Shown in pieces: positions 45,107 through 54,688 of a stretch of 64,000 nt of DNA; the stretch's first letter is position 1; each line of letters starts with the position of its first letter. Source of the DNA: Billgrantia sulfidoxydans (GTDB taxonomy: Bacteria; Pseudomonadota; Gammaproteobacteria; Pseudomonadales; Halomonadaceae); contig NZ_CP053381.1 in NCBI RefSeq assembly GCF_017868775.1, positions 1,054,001-1,118,000 of the forward strand. The letters are read 5' to 3'. The notes under the pieces were generated by a model. It did no database searches. It was not told the origin of the DNA and saw nothing but the letters and a program-made list of their open reading frames with translations. The translations under genes and the position numbers were made by a program.

Positions 45107-45909
45107 ACTCGCAACGCTTCCTGGCCCTCGGCCTGCGCTTCTACGTGGTGGTCTTCTTCGCCTACCTGTTCCTGCCGCTGCTCGTCATGGCGGCCGCCAC
45201 CTTCAACGACAGCCGCTTTCCCACGGTGACGCCGTGGGACGGCACCACGCTGCGCTGGTTCGGCGAGCTGGCGGCGGACGGCGGGATGTGGCAGGCGCTC
45301 GGCAACAGCCTGGTCGTGGCGGCCGGCGTGCTGGTCGTCGCCGTGCCCATCGGCATCGCCACCGCGCTGTTCCTCAACACCGTGTCGAGCCGCGCCAAGC
45401 CGTTCCTCTATGCGCTGATCCTGTCGCCGCTGCTCACCCCCGGGGTGATCATCGGTATCTCGACGCTGATCTTCTGGCGCCAGTTCGGCGTCAGCGGCGG
45501 CATCTTCCTCACCGTGCTGGGGCAGGCGACCTTCATCGCCGCCTACGTCATGCTGATGGTCACCGCACGGCTGCAGCGCTTCGATCGCACCCTGGAGCGC
45601 GCGGCGCTGGACCTCGGCGCCAGCCCCTGGCAGGCATTCCGCCGCATTCTGCTGCCCTACCTCAAGCCGGCGCTCTACTCGGCGGCCGTGATCGCCTTCC
45701 TGCAGTCCTTCGAGAACTACAACACCACCCTGTTCGTGGTCGGCTACGACACCACGCTGACGGTCTACATCGCCTCCAAGGTGCGCACCGGGCTCACCCC
45801 GGCGGTGAACGCCCTGGGGCTGGTCCTGATTCTCGTCACGGTGGCGTTCGCAGTGGTCTACGAGCTCAAGCGGCGGCGGGAGGCGGCGCGGGTGGTGAAA
45901 GGCGTCTAG
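45103..45909 (+). CDS. Polyamine ABC transporter permease (PotC-like)
   Basis: This 268-aa permease has the EAA loop AALDLGASPWQAFRRILLPY and a segment LLTPGVIIGISTL typical of PotC-type proteins. It starts in an ATGA overlap with the first permease. Its TAG stop shares the palindrome CTAG with the stop of the convergent histidine kinase gene. Confidence 0.9.
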   Translation: MNSQRFLALGLRFYVVVFFAYLFLPLLVMAAATFNDSRFPTVTPWDGTTLRWFGELAADGGMWQALGNSLVVAAGVLVVAVPIGIATALFLNTVSSRAKPFLYALILSPLLTPGVIIGISTLIFWRQFGVSGGIFLTVLGQATFIAAYVMLMVTARLQRFDRTLERAALDLGASPWQAFRRILLPYLKPALYSAAVIAFLQSFENYNTTLFVVGYDTTLTVYIASKVRTGLTPAVNALGLVLILVTVAFAVVYELKRRREAARVVKGV

Positions 45910-47270
45910 TCCTGGCCTGACGGCACTCCGGCAAGCGGCCGCGCCGGCAGCCAGACCCGGGCGCACAGGCCGCCGAGGGTAGAGGCTTCCAGCGCCAGCC
46001 GGCCGCCGTGCAAGGCCACCAGGTCGGCGACGATGGCCAGCCCCAGCCCGTTGCCGGAGCGCTGCTCGTCCAGGCGGGCGCCGCGCGCCATGGCGGTCTC
46101 GCGCTGGGCTGCGTTCATGCCGGGTCCGTCGTCCTCCACGCAGAGCCAGGCCCCGTCGTCCCCGCTGTGTCCGTGCAGGCGGACTCGGCCATTCGCCCAG
46201 CGCAGGGCGTTGTCCAGCAGGTTGCCGACGAGTTCCTGCAGGTCCTGGGGCGCCATGCGCACGTGCAGGCCGGCCTCCAGCTCATGCTCCAGGGCCACGC
46301 CGCGGCGCCCGGCGAGCCGCCCCAGGCCCTCGAGGATGGGCGCGAGGGCCTCGGCGGCGTCGATCCGGGGAGCCAGGCCGGCGTCGCCCGCCGCGGTGGC
46401 CCGGGCCAGGTGGTGACGCACGGCGGTGTCGATGCGGGCGAGCTCGTCGCGAATCCGGCTGCGGCGCGGCTCCTCGACACCATCGGCCAGGGTGGTCAGC
46501 ACGCTCACCGGGGTCTTCAATGCATGCGCCAGGTTCCCGGCGGCGTGGCGGGCGTGCTCCATCAGCCGCCGGTCGCGGGCCAGCACGGCGTTCATGGCTT
46601 CGGCCAGGCGTGCCAGCTCGGCGGGCAGGCGGGCATCGAGGCGTTCGGCGTCGCCGTTCTCGACCTGCGCCAGGTCGCCCTGCAATCGCCGCAGCGGCGC
46701 CAGGCCCCAGCGCACCTGCAGCGCCAGCATGACCAACACCAGCAGGCCCAGGCCGGCGAGCGACAGCGCCACCAGCCGGGTGAAGCGGTCCAGCTCGAGC
46801 TCCAGCGTCTCCCGCGGTGCCGCCACGCTGACGTGCAGCGGCGACTCCAGCGGGGCCAGGTGGATGTCCCGCTCGACGACCCGCAGCGGGGTGTCGCGAG
46901 GTCCCGCCAGGTCACGCCGGGTCACCTCGGGTCTCTCCTGTACGGGCAGGCGCTGGTCCCACAGCGAGCGTGAGGTGAGCACCCGCTCGCCGCCGTCGCT
47001 GACCTGCCAGTACCAGCCGGAGAAGACCCGTTCGAAGCGCGGGTCGCCGAGGTCGCGCTCCTGTACCAGCTGCTGCGCCACGTCGTCCCAGGCGACACCG
47101 GCGATCACCACGTTGAGCAGCGCCTCCAACTGGCGGTCGAAGGCGCCGGTGGCGGTGGCGCGAAAGTGCTGGGCGAGGCCGAGGCCGGCCAGCGGCAGGG
47201 TAAGCGCCAGCATCAGCAGGGTGGCCAGTATCAGCCGGCTGGCCAGCGACAGCCGCTGCAGTCGTTTCAT
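45906..47270 (-). CDS. Sensor histidine kinase (PhoQ-like, PepSY-associated)
   Basis: This 454-aa membrane kinase has two helices (about 10-32 and 165-188) flanking a periplasmic sensor of about 130 residues (AWDDVAQQL, VFSGWYWQVSD). After a HAMP-like linker it has the H-box AAGNLAHALKTPVSVL, N-box NLLDNALRWANG, G1 CVEDDGPGM and G2 NGLGLAIVADLVALHGG. It should phosphorylate the adjacent response regulator. Its start overlaps the regulator stop. The signal is unknown; relatives sense divalent cations or antimicrobial peptides. Confidence 0.88.
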   Translation of the reverse strand: MKRLQRLSLASRLILATLLMLALTLPLAGLGLAQHFRATATGAFDRQLEALLNVVIAGVAWDDVAQQLVQERDLGDPRFERVFSGWYWQVSDGGERVLTSRSLWDQRLPVQERPEVTRRDLAGPRDTPLRVVERDIHLAPLESPLHVSVAAPRETLELELDRFTRLVALSLAGLGLLVLVMLALQVRWGLAPLRRLQGDLAQVENGDAERLDARLPAELARLAEAMNAVLARDRRLMEHARHAAGNLAHALKTPVSVLTTLADGVEEPRRSRIRDELARIDTAVRHHLARATAAGDAGLAPRIDAAEALAPILEGLGRLAGRRGVALEHELEAGLHVRMAPQDLQELVGNLLDNALRWANGRVRLHGHSGDDGAWLCVEDDGPGMNAAQRETAMARGARLDEQRSGNGLGLAIVADLVALHGGRLALEASTLGGLCARVWLPARPLAGVPSGQD

Positions 47271-47938
47271 GAGGCCTCGGTGCTGCCGATGAGGCGGTAA
47301 CCCTGGCCGCGGCGGGTTTCGATGCGCTCGGCGCCCAGCTTGCGCCTCAGGCGGCTGATCTGGACGTCGATGACGTTGGAGTCGGGTTCGTGGTCGCGAT
47401 CGTAGACATGCTCGGCCAGCTCGCTACGGCTGACCACCCGCGGGGCGGCGTGGGCCAAGTAGGCGAGCAGGCGCGACTCCTGGGCGGTGAGGCTCACCGG
47501 GCGACCGGCCAGGGTGACGCTGCCGGTATGGGTGTCGAAGGCCAGCTCGCCGATGCGCAGCACCGGATGGGCGTGGCCGTGGCTGCGGCGCACCAGGGCG
47601 CGCAGGCGGAACAGCACCTCGGCGGTCTCGAACGGCTTGGTGACGTAGTCGTCGGCGCCGGCGGAGAAGCCGGTGGCCTTGTCGGCCCAGCGGGTACGCG
47701 CGGTCAGCACCAGCACCGGCAATTCGATGGCGTCCTTGCGCCACTCGGCGAGCCAACGGCTGCCGTCGCCATCGGGCAGCCCGAGGTCGAGGATCACGGC
47801 GTCGTACACCTCCGTGCGCACCAGGAAATCGGCCTCGCCGCCGCAGCCGGTCCGCTCGACCAGCACCCCGGCCTCGTGCAGTGCCTCCGCCAGCGCCGTG
47901 GCCAGTGCGTCGTCATCTTCCACCAGGAGCACCTTCAT
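47267..47938 (-). CDS. OmpR-family response regulator (PhoP-like)
   Basis: This 223-aa regulator has a receiver domain with acidic pair VEDDD, phospho-acceptor D51 in VILDLGLPDGDG, T in LVLTAR and K in DYVTKPF. A winged-helix DNA-binding domain follows (about 125-220, with LTAQESRLLAYLAHAAPRVV, EHVYDRDHEPDSNVIDVQIS and RRGQGYRL). It is coupled to the kinase downstream and the PepSY gene upstream. A direct repeat upstream of the PepSY gene may be its binding site. Confidence 0.92.
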   Translation of the reverse strand: MKVLLVEDDDALATALAEALHEAGVLVERTGCGGEADFLVRTEVYDAVILDLGLPDGDGSRWLAEWRKDAIELPVLVLTARTRWADKATGFSAGADDYVTKPFETAEVLFRLRALVRRSHGHAHPVLRIGELAFDTHTGSVTLAGRPVSLTAQESRLLAYLAHAAPRVVSRSELAEHVYDRDHEPDSNVIDVQISRLRRKLGAERIETRRGQGYRLIGSTEAS

Positions 47939-48315
47939 CGCGCCTCCTCCTTGCGCCGCATGCCGTCGATGTTGACGCCCTCCATGCCGATCAGCTCGCC
48001 GCTCGCGGCATCGAACTCGAACTCCACTACCTGACCCTGGGGGCCGAGCATCTCCACCTCGTAGATTGTCCGGCCATCATCGCGCTCCAGCTCGACTTCG
48101 AGCACCTGGCCCTCGTAGCGCGCCTCGAGCCAGTCGAGGATCTGCGGCAGCGCGACCAGCCGGCCGCTGCGGACGGCCTCGTGCAGGTCGTGCCAGTGCC
48201 TGTCGGCGAACGCCGGGGCGGCGGCCAGCAGCGACAGCCACAGGGCCGCCAGGGCGCGGCGGGCGAAGGCGCGGCGCGACAGGTATTTGCGTGGAGACGG
48301 GAGTGAAGGCTTCAT
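47935..48315 (-). CDS. PepSY-domain periplasmic protein
   Basis: This 126-aa protein has a signal sequence (RALAALWLSLLAAAPAFA) and a single PepSY domain: ALPQILDWLEARYEGQVLEV, YEVEMLGPQGQVVEFEFDA and SGELIGMEGV. Small PepSY proteins of this kind sit in front of PhoP/PhoQ-like pairs and may modulate the sensor in the periplasm. The ATG at 48315 was chosen because the signal sequence fits; its ribosome-binding site is weak. It is the first gene of the three-gene operon. Confidence 0.82.
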   Translation of the reverse strand: MKPSLPSPRKYLSRRAFARRALAALWLSLLAAAPAFADRHWHDLHEAVRSGRLVALPQILDWLEARYEGQVLEVELERDDGRTIYEVEMLGPQGQVVEFEFDAASGELIGMEGVNIDGMRRKEEAR

Positions 48316-48337
48316 GAAGCAAGAGTGCCGGGCCCGA

Positions 48338-48354
48338 CATGAATACAGCATGAA
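48338..48354 (-). promoter_or_regulatory. Direct-repeat box for an OmpR-family regulator
   Basis: CATGAA-TACAG-CATGAA is a perfect hexamer direct repeat with an 11-bp period. It lies between the divergent PepSY gene (start 48315) and the gene at 48448. A third CATGAA occurs at 48313-48318 over the start codon. This geometry is typical of OmpR-family regulators, here probably the neighbouring PhoP-like protein. Confidence 0.5.
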
Positions 48355-48447
48355 CGGGGCTGTCAGCATGGGGCAAGGTGGCCGGTGCTAAAACCTGATC
48401 TGTGTCCAGAAACGTGACACTTGCCACAAGCCACAGAGGAAAGACCC

Positions 48448-48921
48448 ATGAAACGCAACATACTCGCAGCCGGTTCGCTGGCTACCCTGATGCTCGCCTT
48501 CACCTCGGCACAGGCTTCCGACGGTCGCCTGGCGACGGATCGCCTCGACGAGGTGCTGGAGCAGGTCACGGCCTTCGGCTTTCAGCACATCCAGGAGATC
48601 GAGGCCAAGGGGCGCGACAGCGTCGAGGTCGAAGGCTGGCTCGACGACGAATGGCAGGCCGAGGTGCGCCTGTCGCTGGAGAACGGCGAATCCCTCGAAG
48701 AGGAGCGCAAGCGCCGCGACGGCGGGGCCTGGGGCATGAGCGAAGAGGACATCCGCCTGGCCATGGAAGCCGCCGTGGCCGAGGGACTGGCCGAGTTCGA
48801 GGAGATCCAGGTCGACCGCGACGGACGCATCGAGATCGAGGGCCGCGACGCCGACGGCCGCGAGATCGAGGTGCGGACTCGCCAGGGAGAGAGCGGGGCG
48901 ACCGACGTGGAACGCGACTGA
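48448..48921 (+). CDS. Secreted PepSY-like acidic protein
   Basis: This 157-aa protein has a cleavable signal (MKRNILAAGSLATLMLAFTS, then AQAS). The rest is acidic and has two PepSY-like alpha/beta units (FGFQHIQEIEAKGRDSVEVE and LAEFEEIQVDRDGRIEIEGR). It is divergent from the PepSY/two-component operon and shares its control region, so it is probably a target of that system. It may be a periplasmic metal- or peptide-binding modulator; this is inference. Confidence 0.82.
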   Translation: MKRNILAAGSLATLMLAFTSAQASDGRLATDRLDEVLEQVTAFGFQHIQEIEAKGRDSVEVEGWLDDEWQAEVRLSLENGESLEEERKRRDGGAWGMSEEDIRLAMEAAVAEGLAEFEEIQVDRDGRIEIEGRDADGREIEVRTRQGESGATDVERD

Positions 48922-49023: not shown

Positions 49024-50724
49024 TCAACGATCGCCGTCGTGGGCATCGAGCTGGGCCATGAGGCTCGGCTCGAGGCGTCGGCAGTGCTGGGTGATGTCCA
49101 GGCGAACGTCGATCACGGAGCTCTCCACCCCCAGTACGCCGAGCAGGGTATGAAACAGATGATCATGGCTCACGGTACGCTCGGACTGGCGCGCCAGGCA
49201 GTCGCTGTCGAGCCCGGCGCCGCGGTCGAAGCTTGGTGACGACCACCAGATCATGGGGACGCGAGTCTGCTCGTCCGGTGCGATGGCGTACGGCAGGCCA
49301 TGCAGAAAGATCCCACCCTCACCGAGCGACTCGCCGTGATCCGAAACGTAGAGCAGCGCCGCGTCCAGTGAGGGCCGGCGCTCGAGCGCCTCGATCATGG
49401 CATCCAGTACGTTGTCCGTGTAGCGCACGGCATTGTCGTAGCTGTTCACGATGGATTCTCGCGTGCATCTCGCCAGGTCGGCCTCCTCGCAGGTCGGTGT
49501 GAAGACGCGTTGCGCCTCAGGGTAGCGTTGGGAGTAGCTCGGACCATGGTTGCCGAGCATGTGTAGCACGACCACCGTGTCCTCCTCGATGCTGGCCGCC
49601 TGGCGCTCGAGTTCATCGACGAGAACCTCGTCCAGGCAGGTACCGTCGCGACATTTCTCGGGATAATCCTTGGGAGAGAGCGTGCGGCGTTCCACGCCGT
49701 CGCAGACCCCCTTGCACCCCGACTGGTTGTCGATCCACAACACGCGGAAGCCGGCATGGCGCAGCACGTCCAGCAGCGACTCGTGGCTGAGAATATCGCG
49801 CTCGTCGTAATCGCGCCGGCCGCGTCGGGCGAACATGCAGGGCAGCGATACCGCCGTGCTGGTGCCGCAGCTCGAAACCCGCGGGAAGTTGACCAGCTCG
49901 CGCTCTGCCAGCTTCGGGGTGGTCTGGCGAGCATAGCCGGAGAGCCCCCAGTTGGCCGCACGCACGGTCTCGCCTACCACTAGCACCATCAGACGCGGCG
50001 CCCCGGTCGCGCTTGGCTGGCGGCGGGCGTCCTCGCCGATGGGAAGACGCTCGCTGGGCAGCGGGTCGTCGGCTGCGAGAACCTGCCCGGTTGAGACGAT
50101 GGCGTTGCCCGGCGTAACCAGGAAGCGCAGCTCATGATGGTTGCGCATCAACGGAGACAAGCTCTGGAACGAGAGCAGCAGTGCCACGACCAAGACGACG
50201 ACGGCACCGGCCAGCCACAGCAGCGACATGCCCAGGCCGCGTCGCCAGGAGCGGTGGCGCAATGGCCAGAGCCACAGCAGCGCAAGCGGCAGCGCCGCGT
50301 AGAGCACCAGGTATCTGGCAAGACCCGGGGTCAGCAGTTCGGTGGCCTCGCGGGTATCGGTCTGGACGACATTGTCGATCATGTGGGTGTCGAAGTAGAC
50401 CCCGTAGTGACCGGTGAAATAGCTGACGCCGGCGGCCAGCAGCAGCAGCGCCGAGAGCAAAGGCTTGGCGGTGACGCGGTTGATGAACGGCAGAAAGACC
50501 ACGCAGTGCAGCAGGGTCAGGATCACGCCGTAGCCGATCATATGGCCCCACTCAACCAGACTGCCGGGTGGCTCGGCGGCGAGCGTCTCCGCCCAGAACC
50601 GCTGGTTGTAGAAGAAGGTGAAGGCCAGGCAGACCATCAAGGTAAGCGCCTGGGGCGACAGGGCAGGGAGCCGCCAAGGTCGGCATCGGCGCTCGGTGTG
50701 GACGAGTGGGGGGCGTTCTGGCAT
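49024..50724 (-). CDS. eptA: Lipid A phosphoethanolamine transferase
   Basis: This 566-aa inner-membrane enzyme adds phosphoethanolamine from phosphatidylethanolamine to lipid A, lowering negative surface charge and binding of cationic peptides. Five N-terminal helices (about 25-190) are followed by a periplasmic sulfatase-like domain with VVGETVRAANWGLSGY (metal glutamate), CGTSTAVSLPCMF (acceptor threonine about 290), LHMLGNHGPSYSQRYP and LYVSDHGESLGE. Disulfide-type cysteines (SGCKGVC, KCRDGTC, TCEEADLARC) match EptA/MCR-type enzymes. A PmrA-like box lies 48 bp before the start. It is downstream of its likely two-component regulators. Confidence 0.93.
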   Translation of the reverse strand: MPERPPLVHTERRCRPWRLPALSPQALTLMVCLAFTFFYNQRFWAETLAAEPPGSLVEWGHMIGYGVILTLLHCVVFLPFINRVTAKPLLSALLLLAAGVSYFTGHYGVYFDTHMIDNVVQTDTREATELLTPGLARYLVLYAALPLALLWLWPLRHRSWRRGLGMSLLWLAGAVVVLVVALLLSFQSLSPLMRNHHELRFLVTPGNAIVSTGQVLAADDPLPSERLPIGEDARRQPSATGAPRLMVLVVGETVRAANWGLSGYARQTTPKLAERELVNFPRVSSCGTSTAVSLPCMFARRGRRDYDERDILSHESLLDVLRHAGFRVLWIDNQSGCKGVCDGVERRTLSPKDYPEKCRDGTCLDEVLVDELERQAASIEEDTVVVLHMLGNHGPSYSQRYPEAQRVFTPTCEEADLARCTRESIVNSYDNAVRYTDNVLDAMIEALERRPSLDAALLYVSDHGESLGEGGIFLHGLPYAIAPDEQTRVPMIWWSSPSFDRGAGLDSDCLARQSERTVSHDHLFHTLLGVLGVESSVIDVRLDITQHCRRLEPSLMAQLDAHDGDR

Positions 50725-50771
50725 GGATGAATCGTCACGGGAAGTCGATTCACCCAGCCTTGCTTGGCAAC

Positions 50772-50788
50772 CTTAACGCTCGCTTATG
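50772..50788 (-). promoter_or_regulatory. PmrA-like box before eptA
   Basis: The plus strand reads CTTAAC-GCTCG-CTTATG, two near-CTTAAG hexamers with a 5-bp spacer as in PmrA/BasR boxes. It lies 48 bp before the eptA start. Confidence 0.55.
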
Positions 50789-50794
50789 GCGCCA

Positions 50795-52171
50795 TCACTT
50801 GGTGCGTGGCAGTGTAGCCAGGGCACGCAGCCCCCCTCCGGGCGCCTCCTGCAGCTGCAGCCGCCCGCCGTGACGGGCCAGCAGGCGCTCGACGATGGAT
50901 AGGCCCAGGCCAGCGCCGGCGCCCGGGCCGGCGCGATGGAAGCGCTCGGTAACGCGCTGGCGCTCGGCGGCGGGAATGCCAGGCCCTTGGTCGTCAACGC
51001 GCAGTGTCATTCGGTCATCGTCCGCGTCCAGCGCGACGGTGATGACACTGCCGTCAGGGGAGTGGCGCAGTGCATTGCCGACCAGGTTCTGTAGCAGCGT
51101 CGCGATGGCTCCGGGTTCGGTTCGCAGCGTCCAATCGGTAGCCTCGTCGGCCTCGAGGTCCAGCCTCTGGCGTCGCTCGGCGGCGAGCGGCGTCAGCTCG
51201 GCCAACGCCTCACGCACTTCGAGGAGCAGGTCGATCTCGTGCCGCTTGGGTTCTGCCTCCTCCGGGTCCAGGCGGGCGAGCGTCAGCAGCTGCGCCACCA
51301 GGCGGGTGGTCCGTGCCACGCCGGTGCGCAGCTCCTCGAGCGCTTCGCGACGATCTTCGGGGCTCTCCGCGGCGAGGGCATTCTGGGCATGCAGATCGAG
51401 CACTGCCAGCGGGGTGCGCAGCTCGTGGGCGGCGTCAGCGATGAAGCGCTTCTCGCGCACCCGGAGCTCGCGGATCCGCTCGAGCAGGCGGTTCAGCGCG
51501 CCGACGATGGTCGCCAGCTCACGCGGCAGCGGCTGCAGCGCCAGCGGCTGCAGGGTGTGCGGGTCGCGGTGACGGATCGCCTCGGCCAGGCGCGACAGCG
51601 GGCGCAGCCCCCGGCCGGTAGCCCACCACAGCAGCAGCGCCAACAGCGGCAGGCCGAACAGGTCCGGCAGCAGGGTGCGCAGGGCGACGGCGCGGGTCAG
51701 CTCGCCGCGCACGTCGCTGCGCTCGGCGACCATCACCCGGCGCGGCGAATCGGTCACGTCAAGCACGTAAATGCGCCAGTCATGCCCGGCCATGCGGTTG
51801 TCGGTGTAGCCCGGTGGGCGGTCGGTGAACGGCTGCTCCGGGGCGCTGGCGGAGCGCAGCAGCAGGCGCTCCCCCTCCCACAGCTGGAAGGCCAGCTTGC
51901 TCTCGTAGCGGTGCCCGGCGAGGCGCTTGTCCGACTGCTCGGCACGCAGCAGTGCGCTCTCGAGGCTTTCGAGCAGAGCTTCACGCTCTCCGCTCGGCAG
52001 CGGTGACTGGGCCAGGCCCTCCAGCAGGCGGGCATTCTGCGCCAGGCTGGCGTCGTAGAGCTCCTCGATCTCGTGGGCGGCGTAGCGATAGCTGACCAGC
52101 CCGATAGCCAGCATGCTGGTGGAGAACACCAGCAAAACCAGAACCAGGGTGCGGCGGCGGATCGAGGTCAT
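50795..52171 (-). CDS. Sensor histidine kinase (PmrB/QseC-like)
   Basis: This 458-aa membrane kinase has two helices (about 8-28 and 163-185) around a periplasmic sensor. It shows H-box FIADAAHELRTPLAVL, N-box LLQNLVGNALRHSPDG, G1 RVDDQGPGIPAAE and G2 GAGLGLSIVERLLARHGG. It is the partner of the regulator that overlaps its start. By position upstream of eptA and by the PmrA-like boxes it is probably the PmrB of this organism. The PmrB-type ExxE iron-sensing motif was not clearly seen, so QseC-like is the alternative. Confidence 0.87.
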   Translation of the reverse strand: MTSIRRRTLVLVLLVFSTSMLAIGLVSYRYAAHEIEELYDASLAQNARLLEGLAQSPLPSGEREALLESLESALLRAEQSDKRLAGHRYESKLAFQLWEGERLLLRSASAPEQPFTDRPPGYTDNRMAGHDWRIYVLDVTDSPRRVMVAERSDVRGELTRAVALRTLLPDLFGLPLLALLLWWATGRGLRPLSRLAEAIRHRDPHTLQPLALQPLPRELATIVGALNRLLERIRELRVREKRFIADAAHELRTPLAVLDLHAQNALAAESPEDRREALEELRTGVARTTRLVAQLLTLARLDPEEAEPKRHEIDLLLEVREALAELTPLAAERRQRLDLEADEATDWTLRTEPGAIATLLQNLVGNALRHSPDGSVITVALDADDDRMTLRVDDQGPGIPAAERQRVTERFHRAGPGAGAGLGLSIVERLLARHGGRLQLQEAPGGGLRALATLPRTK

Positions 52172-52839
52172 GGGGCGTCGGCCTCATCCAGCACGTAGCC
52201 GATCCCCCGCACCGTGCGGATCAGGTCCGGGAACAGCTTACGGCGCAGGTGGTGGACATGAACCTCGATGGCATTGCTCTCGACGTCCGCTTCCCAGCCG
52301 TAGACCAGCCGGGTCAGGGTATCGCGGGTGAAGACGCGCCCCGGGTGGCTCATGAACTCGTGCAGCAGGGTGAACTCGCGACGCGACAGCACCACCGGCC
52401 GGCCGCGGTAGCTGACACCGAGGGTGGCCGGATCGAGGCGGATGTCGCGACACTCCAGCACGGGGCTCGCCTGGCCCTGGCTGCGGCGCAGCAGCGCGCG
52501 CAGGCGCGCCTTGAGCTCGGCTACCTCGAAGGGCTTGATCAGATAATCGTCAGCGCCGGCGTCCAGGCCGGCGATGCGGTCGTCGACGGCATCCCGGGCG
52601 GTGAGCACCAGCACTGGCACCCGGTTGCCCCGTCGGCGAGCGCTCTCCAGTACCCGCATACCGTCCAGCCCGGGCAGGCCCAGGTCGAGAATCACGGCAT
52701 CGAACGGTTCGTCGCCGTGCAGCGCGTTCAGGGCCGCGGTACCGTCGGCCAGATGATCGACGGTGTAGTGCTCGGGCTTGAGAGCCAGGCGGATGCCCGA
52801 GGCCAGGCTCGGGTCATCCTCCACCAGCAGGATGCGCAT
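52168..52839 (-). CDS. OmpR-family response regulator (PmrA/QseB-like)
   Basis: This 223-aa regulator starts at the ATG at 52839. The receiver has VEDDP, phospho-acceptor D52 in VILDLGLPGLDGM, LVLTARDAVDDRI and K in DYLIKPFEVAEL. The winged-helix domain has VVLSRREFTLLHEFMSHPGR, YGWEADVESNAIEVHVHHLR and TVRGIGYVLDE. The start lies 26 bp inside the end of the heptosyltransferase-like gene. It probably binds the three CTTAAG-type boxes nearby, including one in front of its own operon. Confidence 0.92.
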   Translation of the reverse strand: MRILLVEDDPSLASGIRLALKPEHYTVDHLADGTAALNALHGDEPFDAVILDLGLPGLDGMRVLESARRRGNRVPVLVLTARDAVDDRIAGLDAGADDYLIKPFEVAELKARLRALLRRSQGQASPVLECRDIRLDPATLGVSYRGRPVVLSRREFTLLHEFMSHPGRVFTRDTLTRLVYGWEADVESNAIEVHVHHLRRKLFPDLIRTVRGIGYVLDEADAP

Positions 52840-53995
52840 GCAGGCGATCTCGTCTTCGGTCGTCGTGGCCCGGGTGTGCCGGGGCTGCATGTCCATGCGC
52901 TTCGCGGCTCGGCTGCGGCGCGGGTCGCGCGGCTTCCTGGCGATGCGACACACGCTCGGCCACCGTCTCCGGGTCTGGTTGGAAAAGTACCAGATCCGCG
53001 GGGCCCTCGGGAGCGAATCTGCGTGACCCAGGCACGTTGAGCAGTGCCACCACGGGCACCGCCAGGGCGGCTGCCATGTGCATGGGGCCCGTATCCGGCG
53101 TGACGAGCCGTGGGAGCTGAGAGAGCACGGCCGCGAACTCGCGCAGTGGCAGTGGCGGCAGGAGGCGGCCGTGAACGCCGCAGGCAGATGCCAGGGCGGG
53201 AAGGTGGCGTGCCTCCTCTGGCCCCAGCAGGACCAGATAGGGCTGGCAGCGTGCCTCGAGCGCCCGCAACAGGGCCTGCCAGAAGGGGAGAGGCAGGCGC
53301 TTGTCGAGGTGGCCGCCAACGAAGATGCCGATGGCGCTGGGCGGCAGCGACTGCCTCGCCAGCAGCGCCAGTGCGGCGTCATGCTCCTGCGGGGACAGCA
53401 CCAGCCAGGGGCGCGGCTCGCAGGCCAGGCCCAGGGGCGCCGCCAGGCTGTTGGCCAGTGCATGGGCGCGGGCCGGGGCAGGCCCCGCCACCCAGTCATA
53501 GGTGGCTTGCAGCCGACCGCATTGCCCCATCGTCTGCCGTGCGCCGCAAAGCTGGACGAATAGCCAACTGGTGAGGGAGCCCTCGCCGACCTGAACGGCC
53601 AGGTCGTACTCACGCCGCCGCAGTTCGATCAGCAGCCGCCACAGACGCCAGGGGCGCAGTACCATGCTGCGGCTCAGGGAGTAGTAATGCGCCAGCGGCA
53701 TACCGACGAACAGCGTCTGGGTCGCGTCCGTCCCCAGGTAGTCGAGCTCGATCTCAGACCGCTGCTGTGTCAACGCCTGGATCAGGCGAGCACCGATGAC
53801 GGCATTGCCGATCCGAAAGTTGGGACGCACCAGCAGGATTCGCCGTGCTCCCAGCAGGGTTTCGGGTGTGGCGGGCCGTCCGGCTCGGGCATGTTTCGTC
53901 AATGCTCGGTAGAGCCAGGCCTTGGCGCCACGCTCCAGGCGCTTTCCCAGCTTGCGCATGGCCGGGTGGCGGCGGATCGAAGTCAGCAGGAACAT
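52814..53995 (-). CDS. Glycosyltransferase family 9 (heptosyltransferase-like)
   Basis: This 393-aa protein shows the GT9 N-terminal RRILLVRPNFRIGNAVIG and the C-terminal nucleotide-sugar segment VTPDTGPMHMAAALAVPVVAL, as in LPS heptosyltransferases (RfaF/WaaC/WaaQ). It probably adds a sugar to the LPS core at the inner membrane. The last about 35 residues are unusual: rich in H, R, A and P, and overlapping the regulator gene by 26 bp. This tail may be a read-through extension of a shorter ancestral protein. It is first in an operon with the PmrA/B-like genes and eptA. Confidence 0.87.
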   Translation of the reverse strand: MFLLTSIRRHPAMRKLGKRLERGAKAWLYRALTKHARAGRPATPETLLGARRILLVRPNFRIGNAVIGARLIQALTQQRSEIELDYLGTDATQTLFVGMPLAHYYSLSRSMVLRPWRLWRLLIELRRREYDLAVQVGEGSLTSWLFVQLCGARQTMGQCGRLQATYDWVAGPAPARAHALANSLAAPLGLACEPRPWLVLSPQEHDAALALLARQSLPPSAIGIFVGGHLDKRLPLPFWQALLRALEARCQPYLVLLGPEEARHLPALASACGVHGRLLPPLPLREFAAVLSQLPRLVTPDTGPMHMAAALAVPVVALLNVPGSRRFAPEGPADLVLFQPDPETVAERVSHRQEAARPAPQPSREAHGHAAPAHPGHDDRRRDRLHAHPAGGG

Positions 53996-54041
53996 GCAGG
54001 CGCTCCTTGATGGGGTGACGCCTGCACTTTCCCCGCTCGGT

Positions 54042-54058
54042 CTTATCGCAGCCTTAAG
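54042..54058 (-). promoter_or_regulatory. PmrA-like box before the heptosyltransferase operon
   Basis: The plus strand reads CTTATC-GCAGC-CTTAAG: one perfect CTTAAG and one near match with a 5-bp spacer. It lies 47 bp before the glycosyltransferase start and so would control the whole operon including the regulator. Confidence 0.6.
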
Positions 54059-54068
54059 CGATCGCCAC

Positions 54069-54590
54069 TCAGGCCATGCGCTTGAGGCTTCGCTCGCCTA
54101 GCCACCACTGATGGGCGAGGGCGGCGATCACATGCCCGCCGATCAGCAGCCACATCAAGTTGGCGAGTACTTCATGAGTTTCCTCGAAGGCCTCTTCGAT
54201 CCACTCGATCTCTGGGCCAGCCGGAATCAGCGGCAGGCCGAAGAAGGCCACGCCGTGGCCGCTGCCCCAGGCGGTGAGCACGCCGCTCACCGGAATCGCC
54301 AGCAGGAGCAGATAGAGCGCCAGGTGGCCGAGGCGGGCGGCACGGCGCCAGTGCGCCGGTGGCGCCACCCGGCCGTGGTTATGCCAGCGCCAGGCCAGGC
54401 GGAAGACGAGCAGCACGAGCAGCGCTATGCCGAGGCTCTTGTGCAGGCCCATCAGGTTGGCCTTGCCGAGTTCCTCAAGCGCTTCCATCCACCAGTCGCT
54501 GGCAAGCAGGAACAGCACCAGCACGGCCATGGACCAGTGCAGGACGCGGGAGACGAGACCATAGCGGTTTTCGGTATCGAGCCAGTTCAT
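54069..54590 (-). CDS. Cytochrome b561 family protein
   Basis: This 173-aa four-helix membrane protein has the haem-ligand histidines of bacterial cytochrome b561: RVLHWSMAVLVLF, LMGLHKSLGI, EETHEVLANLMW and HVIAALAHQWW. It would pass electrons from ubiquinol, and family members can quench superoxide. It carries its own PmrA-like box and lies just upstream of the glycosyltransferase operon, so it may belong to the same regulon. Confidence 0.9.
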   Translation of the reverse strand: MNWLDTENRYGLVSRVLHWSMAVLVLFLLASDWWMEALEELGKANLMGLHKSLGIALLVLLVFRLAWRWHNHGRVAPPAHWRRAARLGHLALYLLLLAIPVSGVLTAWGSGHGVAFFGLPLIPAGPEIEWIEEAFEETHEVLANLMWLLIGGHVIAALAHQWWLGERSLKRMA

Positions 54591-54636
54591 CGGGTCACTC
54601 CTTGAAGGGGTACGTGACCGTTTTACCCGGCGCTAC

Positions 54637-54653
54637 CTTGCGGGAGCCTTAAG
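54637..54653 (-). promoter_or_regulatory. PmrA-like box before cytochrome b561
   Basis: The plus strand reads CTTGCG-GGAGC-CTTAAG. One hexamer is perfect and one has two mismatches. The spacing to the start codon (47 bp) equals that of the box before the heptosyltransferase gene. Confidence 0.5.
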
Positions 54654-54688
54654 GCTTCGTTCATGTCGCGTTCATCCGGCGCCAGCGC

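Follow-up and report, generated by a model that had tools for sequence, protein, structure and literature searches.

Two adjoining two-component systems and a probable local lipopolysaccharide regulon in Billgrantia sulfidoxydans

In a stretch of 64,000 nt of the Billgrantia sulfidoxydans genome (4,491,948 bases in one contig), hereafter the window, three direct repeats of the CTTAAG-N5-CTTAAG type precede respectively eptA, a probable operon led by a glycosyltransferase gene of the GT9 family, and a cytochrome b561 gene. The GT9 operon also encodes a response regulator, RR1, and its sensor kinase. Do these boxes define one regulon, through which RR1 would adjust lipopolysaccharide (LPS) together with a redox protein, as the initial annotation of this DNA proposed? 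We consider a narrower answer probable: RR1 and its kinase would form an autoregulated system of the QseB/PmrA type with a very local regulon, the GT9 operon and eptA, abutting a PhoP-like regulon that would claim cytochrome b561.

The boxes, their promoters and their conservation

On the reverse strand, to which all features below belong unless otherwise stated, the predicted operator of eptA (CATAAG-CGAGC-GTTAAG) lies at 50772-50788, 47 bp from the ATG at 50724, and that of the GT9-RR1-kinase operon (CTTAAG-GCTGC-GATAAG) at 54042-54058, 46 bp from the ATG at 53995. The third box, CTTAAG-GCTCC-CGCAAG at 54637-54653, is 46 bp from the cytochrome b561 ATG at 54590 and makes up half-sites 3 and 4 of a longer array, discussed below. 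The three boxes are where they had been announced (the distances of 48, 47 and 47 bp given earlier are ours counted one base differently), with the regulator encoded inside the interval; none is perfect, each departing from CTTAAG-N5-CTTAAG at 2 of 12 positions. The equal spacing, which had been taken as the telling sign, is not diagnostic, as the GT9 box of relatives stands 44-50 bp from the start. The fixed quantity among relatives is not this distance, it is the 10 bp that separate the box from a -10-like element.

This element, xAnnnT, is a hexamer starting 10 bp downstream of the box, A and T being its positions 2 and 6. The predicted -10 reads AAGGCT at eptA (50756-50761) and GAAAGT at the GT9 operon (54026-54031). 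The A at +11 and the T at +15 after the box are present in 14/14 GT9 promoters and in 18/18 of the sites used behind the kinase gene; among sites preceding regulator genes, hand-picked and judged by eye, 8 of 11 fit. The 14 GT9 promoters are those with a box, six boxless loci and the duplicate L015 being left out. Two post-kinase sites with 3 mismatches were also left out (by eye, L255 fits the rule and L044 does not), and for L275 and L278-L281 the downstream one of two overlapping boxes was used. Since a standard spacer puts the -35 in the gap between the half-sites, the box covers the -35 position.

Could the boxes be chance or compositional matches? None of them is perfect, and at 3 mismatches the window shows no enrichment (7 boxes for 5.4 expected, 27 of 100 shuffles reaching as many). 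At 2 mismatches the genome holds 12 boxes, none better, and 48 matches to a mirror-image control pattern. Three of these 12 nevertheless fall within 3.9 kb (P ~8e-8, taking the other nine as background and computed after the choice of the motif), and no plausible gene has its ATG 40-55 bp downstream of any of the other nine (longest frames only, by eye). This clustering, the conservation of the boxes with changing spacers and the fixed -10 offset lead us to reject a chance origin, the probability of which we regard as negligible.

When the two -10 bases are required along with the box (at most 1 mismatch), the genome has three such places and the control none. Two of them are the boxes of eptA and of the GT9 operon, and the third is at 1730133 in a copper-resistance-like cluster. 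We set the latter aside as a further RR1 target, the cluster having TTCAG-N6-TTCAG repeats of its own. This cluster (L362, G000:C1:1719000-1738900), which looks copper-resistance-like by eye, carries a response regulator, a kinase, a multicopper-oxidase-like gene and efflux genes. TTCAG-N6-TTCAG occurs four times in it and TTAAG-N6-TTCAG once; these repeats may represent a third OmpR-type operator that shares the 11-bp period.

Relatives were approached from both ends of the operon. With the GT9 protein as query, 30 loci were retrieved, and 18 of them (L043-L060, 52-84% identity, including an unnamed gammaproteobacterium) were taken as family; from their names, we presume them to belong to the Halomonadaceae. 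A box with at most 2 mismatches lies 44-50 bp before the GT9 gene in 12 of the 18, the half-sites being kept while the spacers vary between genera. Three loci (L048, L051 and L055) keep this box without any RR1-like gene in the 15-17 kb fetched, so that linkage alone is no explanation for its maintenance. Few of the sampled neighbour genomes have a strong match to the GT9 gene: 3 of 58, own genome included.

From the side of the regulator, homologs of RR1, paralogs included, occur in 125 of 151 genomes of the family (E 1e-55 or better), 36 places having about 75% identity or more. Forty stretches picked from this hit list were scanned with the box and with the mirror pattern: boxes with no more than 2 mismatches occur in 30 of them (49 sites), versus 6 for the mirror pattern (8 sites). 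Directly after the kinase stop, 17 of 35 orthologs (at least 74% identity) have a box, versus 2/35 for the mirror pattern, while 0 of 14 more distant regulators have one. L106 (G032) also has this post-kinase box, outside the 17, its kinase frame being broken. The initial annotation had named non-conservation in relatives as what would contradict it; what we find at the GT9 and post-kinase places is conservation, which supports a PmrA-type operator with a local regulator.

The gene that follows the post-kinase box is variable. It is eptA in the window and in G108 (L270, where the box has 3 mismatches), a PAP2 protein gene and then eptA in G154 (L271), a gene for a CBS-domain-type protein in L275, L276 and L278-L288 (one scanned), and one for a small membrane protein with no Pfam match in L272, L273 and L289. 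The conserved thing is thus the box behind the kinase, not eptA behind the box. In other genera RR1-like genes have their own box 41-45 bp before the start, and boxes also precede GT2 and PAP2 genes in relatives.

At this spot eptA has come or gone. In L106 the box, the promoter and the first eptA codons are kept, besides which only a 68-bp piece of eptA is left; in L043 both eptA and the box are absent, the homology to the window ending at the kinase end. Two loci of the genus g23, L103 and L105, have six boxes each (at most 2 mismatches) within about 6 and 12 kb, surrounding RR1-like genes, eptA, PAP2 and GT2-like genes and the gene of a 201-residue protein without Pfam match; L103-L105 were fetched for these clusters and enter no count. 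In L257, L258 and L261, whose regulator homologs are more distant (63-64%), two divergent genes have perfect boxes between them; one of these genes is DsbD-like by eye, the other encodes a protein of about 175-190 residues.

Several observations weigh against an RR1 regulon of this kind. Ten of the 40 regulator-selected stretches have no box at 2 mismatches, and in L255, L265 and L270 the sole box is at least 3.8 kb from the regulator gene or inside it. The remaining 6 of the 18 GT9 loci have no box at the gene: four are Salinicola promoters (two from one strain) with a single half-site, and two are matches too short for placing the gene start. An eptA homolog is present in only 2 of the 40 stretches and, among the eptA genes of the family, a box (at most 3 mismatches, within 170 bp) precedes 2 of 29, which does not exceed the 7.6% of random windows from the same loci. 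This count uses 29 of 33 eptA matches (L143 is partial, three are without loci); 28 of 30 cytochrome loci were used. Finally, over the 151 genomes the box is hardly more frequent than its mirror at 1 mismatch (503 versus 468). Box counts over all genomes are of little use; more telling are the 36 genomes that have an RR1 ortholog of about 75% or more, with 134 boxes versus 74 mirror matches, the remaining 115 genomes having 369 versus 394 (kinship and base composition being uncontrolled in both). Several entries share a single genome or strain (L044, L015 and G006; L049 and L054), and L050 with L253 and L047 with L273 are probable duplicates; the counts are therefore not of independent cases.

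The cytochrome b561 promoter and the second system

The cytochrome b561 gene (54069-54590; PF01292, 106 bits, under the PRK11513 cut-off) has a promoter of another build: four half-sites succeed one another every 11 bp, and TAAAAC (54620-54625), the predicted -10, follows 11 bp after the box. The two outer half-sites form the repeat ATGAAC-N5-ATGAAC (54659-54675), perfect in the window, which is probably an operator of a second, PhoP-like two-component system encoded next to the RR1 locus together with two PepSY proteins. Its regulator RR2 (47267-47938) joins E. coli PhoP in a tree (support 88.8/95), although it scores 191.5 bits with the PmrA model and 163.2 with that of PhoP (cut-off 336), reaching no NCBIfam cut-off; the catalytic part of its kinase HK2 (45906-47270) is best with PhoQ, at 131.7 bits (cut-off 497). 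The operon is led by PepSY1 (47935-48369, PF03413; by eye the real start is probably 48315), and PepSY2 (48421-48921 on the forward strand, PF13670; real start, by eye, probably 48448) is divergent from it.

Between the PepSY genes, GTTCAT-N5-ATTCAT at 48339-48355 is the probable operator of the PepSY1-RR2-HK2 operon and reads ATGAAT-N5-ATGAAC toward PepSY2. The repeat GTTCAT-N5-GTTCAT (at most 2 mismatches) occurs 378-579 bp upstream of the RR2 gene, a position which in the window is the PepSY1 promoter, in 29 of 30 orthologs, perfectly in 18; upstream of RR2 in the same 30, the mirror controls and the CTTAAG box were both found in none. The window holds 8 ATGAAC-N5-ATGAAC repeats at 2 mismatches for 1.6 expected, with 0 of 100 shuffles reaching as many, and the whole genome 13 places at 1 mismatch versus 2 for the mirror; beyond the two described here, most of them are inside reading frames. 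The GTTCAT/ATGAAC direct repeat would seem to serve the PepSY-linked PhoP-like system as its operator. Read toward PepSY2, the repeat of the RR2 operon mostly shows the same four-step layout as the cytochrome promoter (29 promoters, L304 being left out, where cytochrome b561 apparently takes the place of PepSY1). In that locus (genome G147) a shortened-looking cytochrome b561 gene overlaps the RR2 start where PepSY1 is expected, and the genome has no RR1 match at E 1e-55.

At cytochrome b561 itself we compared 24 promoters, from 23 of the 24 genomes of the genus with an ortholog (in L331 the gene is at a contig edge) plus G147. The ATGAAC-N5-ATGAAC repeat is found in 23 of them at 2 mismatches or less, 11 times perfect; the full CTTAAG box is found in 5 at this threshold and in 11 at 3 mismatches. 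The second-system repeat being conserved and the full box retained in few, the PhoP-like system is the likelier main regulator of cytochrome b561, with RR1 as an optional second input. Of the proposed coordinated LPS and redox regulon, the LPS half is supported, eptA and the GT9-RR1-kinase operon likely sharing their control, and the redox half, in the form proposed, is not.

There is more to say for RR1 at half-site 3, where TTAAG is present in 22 of the 24 promoters and, by eye, in 0/29 of the RR2-operon promoters on the PepSY2 side; moreover the relative G226 (L320) has TTTAAG-N5-GTTAAG at cytochrome b561. Both observations favour the initial reading, in which RR1 would switch eptA, the GT9 operon and cytochrome b561 as equal members of one PmrAB-like regulon. 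Against it stand the counts of the full box and of the ATGAAC repeat just given, and the distribution of TTAAG: it is kept in G005 and G209, two of the three genomes without RR1 at E 1e-90, and lost in G235, which has RR1. On this distribution we reject the idea that TTAAG at cytochrome b561 follows the presence of RR1, and we judge the three-target regulon unlikely.

An intermediate scheme, in which RR2 would occupy the distal ATGAAC pair and RR1 the proximal TTAAG pair, deserves more credit and is a serious possibility, though not the one we favour. The window indeed offers two half-sites of each kind, all four in an 11-bp period, and half-site 3 is consistently unlike that of RR2's own promoters. 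On the other hand most orthologs have a degenerate half-site 4, and the presence of TTAAG does not follow that of RR1. If both systems acted there, the outer pair through RR2 and the inner pair through RR1, cytochrome b561 might be expressed by both envelope signals and the lipid A and core genes by one, a consequence that we put forward tentatively. A main control by the PhoP-like system is still what we retain for cytochrome b561, and RR1 may contribute to it via the TTAAG half-site.

The probable regulator of the boxes and a proposed model for its action

The GT9 gene (52814-53995), which by its GT9 domain encodes a heptosyltransferase-like glycosyltransferase, reaches no heptosyltransferase I, II or III cut-off in an NCBIfam scan. 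It overlaps the RR1 gene (52168-52839) by 26 bp, and the latter overlaps the kinase gene (50795-52171) by 4 bp, so that a single operon is likely. A gap of 70 bp, which holds the eptA box, separates the kinase from eptA (49024-50724), a phosphoethanolamine-lipid A transferase gene by its score with NF028537 (551.5 bits, cut-off 500) and its EptA_B_N and Sulfatase domains.

RR1 is an OmpR-type response regulator of the QseB/PmrA type by profile scores, tree and matches in PDB. It shares 50% identity with E. coli QseB and 42% with BasR (PmrA); its kinase is 33% identical to QseC over its length, whereas the match to BasS is confined to the later part. A tree of 38 sequences, five E. coli regulators among them, places the RR1 homologs with QseB, though with modest support (82.1/71). 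The NCBIfam scores of RR1 tie, far under both cut-offs (QseB 229.2 bits for 345, PmrA 229.1 for 330), and those of the kinase are likewise under theirs (QseC 261.3 for 475, PmrB 182.3 for 314). The kinase is QseC-like in architecture, its 2CSK_N, HisKA and HATPase domains exceeding the Pfam cut-offs and HAMP falling just under; 2CSK_N is the type of sensor domain found in QseC-like kinases. We thus rejected plain PmrAB as the family, RR1 being nearer QseB and the PmrA and PmrB cut-offs being missed. The label PmrAB-like used at first is too restrictive, since the pair comes nearer to QseBC in sequence and in the architecture of its sensor; the cut-offs of both families are missed.

The recognition residues point to which of the two neighbouring regulators reads CTTAAG. 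Among the base-contacting residues of PmrA (T187, N188, V192, H195, N196 and R210), 4 of 6 are identical in RR1, which carries N188, V192, H193, H195 and R210 as PmrA does, and S187 and H196 as in QseB. RR2 has Q193, S195 and R196 at the corresponding places; therefore RR1, not RR2, is expected to bind the boxes. The best PDB matches of RR1 are two BasR (PmrA) chains.

A sensor of Fe(II) resembling BqsRS/CarRS, whose operator is TTAAG-N6-TTAAG, would also suit the boxes, with an identical operator and a similar promoter layout. The kinase has an HExxE motif after its first membrane helix, aligned with the HExxE of E. coli BasS, and ExxE, the periplasmic Fe(II)-binding motif of BqsRS/CarRS, is discussed for BqsS (PMC12666569). 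However, nearly every distant paralog examined carries HExxE and several close orthologs have it altered (HEIEA, HEIQR and others), the sensor domain is of the 2CSK_N type, and the CarR receiver matches RR1 at only 107 bits. We find such a sensor quite improbable here, and iron sensing through HExxE is not claimed.

We rather propose an action of RR1 modelled on the promoter layout; the same layout is known experimentally for PmrA and BqsR. From the boxes and the kinship of RR1 we infer that phosphorylated RR1, as a head-to-tail dimer, would bind two CTTAAG-like half-sites 11 bp apart covering the -35 region and recruit the sigma-70 polymerase to the -10 element 10 bp beyond the box. It would activate its own operon, including the LPS-core-type GT9 glycosyltransferase, and whichever gene follows the kinase, eptA in this case; changes in core sugar and in lipid A phosphoethanolamine might then increase jointly in response to an envelope or cation signal. 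Cytochrome b561 would mainly respond to the PepSY-linked system, through binding of RR2 to the ATGAAC pair.

For LPS remodelling in Halomonadaceae, these results offer a model of operators and promoters that can be tested, and they suggest that a sensor of the QseBC type may be wired to PmrA-type operators and to eptA. Two adjacent two-component regulons would here be told apart by their half-sites. That roughly half of the close orthologs retain the post-kinase box in front of differing genes bears on target swapping in local regulons. A literature search by title, with most subscription papers outside its scope, found nothing on such a regulon in Halomonas, nor on PmrA or PepSY with cytochrome b561.

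Comparison with known systems

The second system resembles PhoPQ in the place of RR2 with PhoP in the tree, in its kinase core, best with PhoQ, and in a direct-repeat operator with a 5-bp gap. It differs by the PepSY proteins in and beside the operon and by the higher score of RR2 with the PmrA model than with that of PhoP. Its repeat unit GTTCAT also differs from the PhoP box.

For RR1, QseBC of E. coli provides the closest of the E. coli sequences compared, with recognition-helix residues that agree except H210 of QseB. The E. coli neighbours are different (ygiW, ygiV and mdaB), and the QseB consensus, as quoted in PMC10729948, is not CTTAAG-N5-CTTAAG. The same paper quotes both consensus sequences and describes cross-talk between PmrAB and QseBC at LPS genes in E. 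coli.

BqsRS/CarRS of Pseudomonas aeruginosa shares the operator TTAAG-N6-TTAAG, which the eptA and GT9 boxes match with one mismatch, and extra upstream half-sites in an 11-bp ladder whose last member is on the -35. BqsR ladders comprise up to five pentamers, the last of which overlaps the -35 in one promoter (PMC4682146).

The operators resemble those of PmrAB/BasRS in E. coli, Salmonella and Klebsiella, which has CTTAAG/CTTAAT-type half-sites (PMC3973317) with a 5-bp gap at the -35, and eptA near the regulator; in the pbgP promoter bound by PmrA, the -35 is at half-site 1 (PMC4660055). The PmrAB operator (C/T)TTAA(G/T)-N5-(C/T)TTAA(G/T) is matched here at two promoters, 2 positions off CTTAAG-N5-CTTAAG, and recurs in relatives. 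In E. coli eptA comes before the regulator, whereas it is found here behind the kinase with a box of its own; the long QseC-type sensor domain, the GT9-led operon and the 42% identity of RR1 to BasR are further differences. The regulon of RR1 is thus most likely of a known kind, in a lineage-specific variant.

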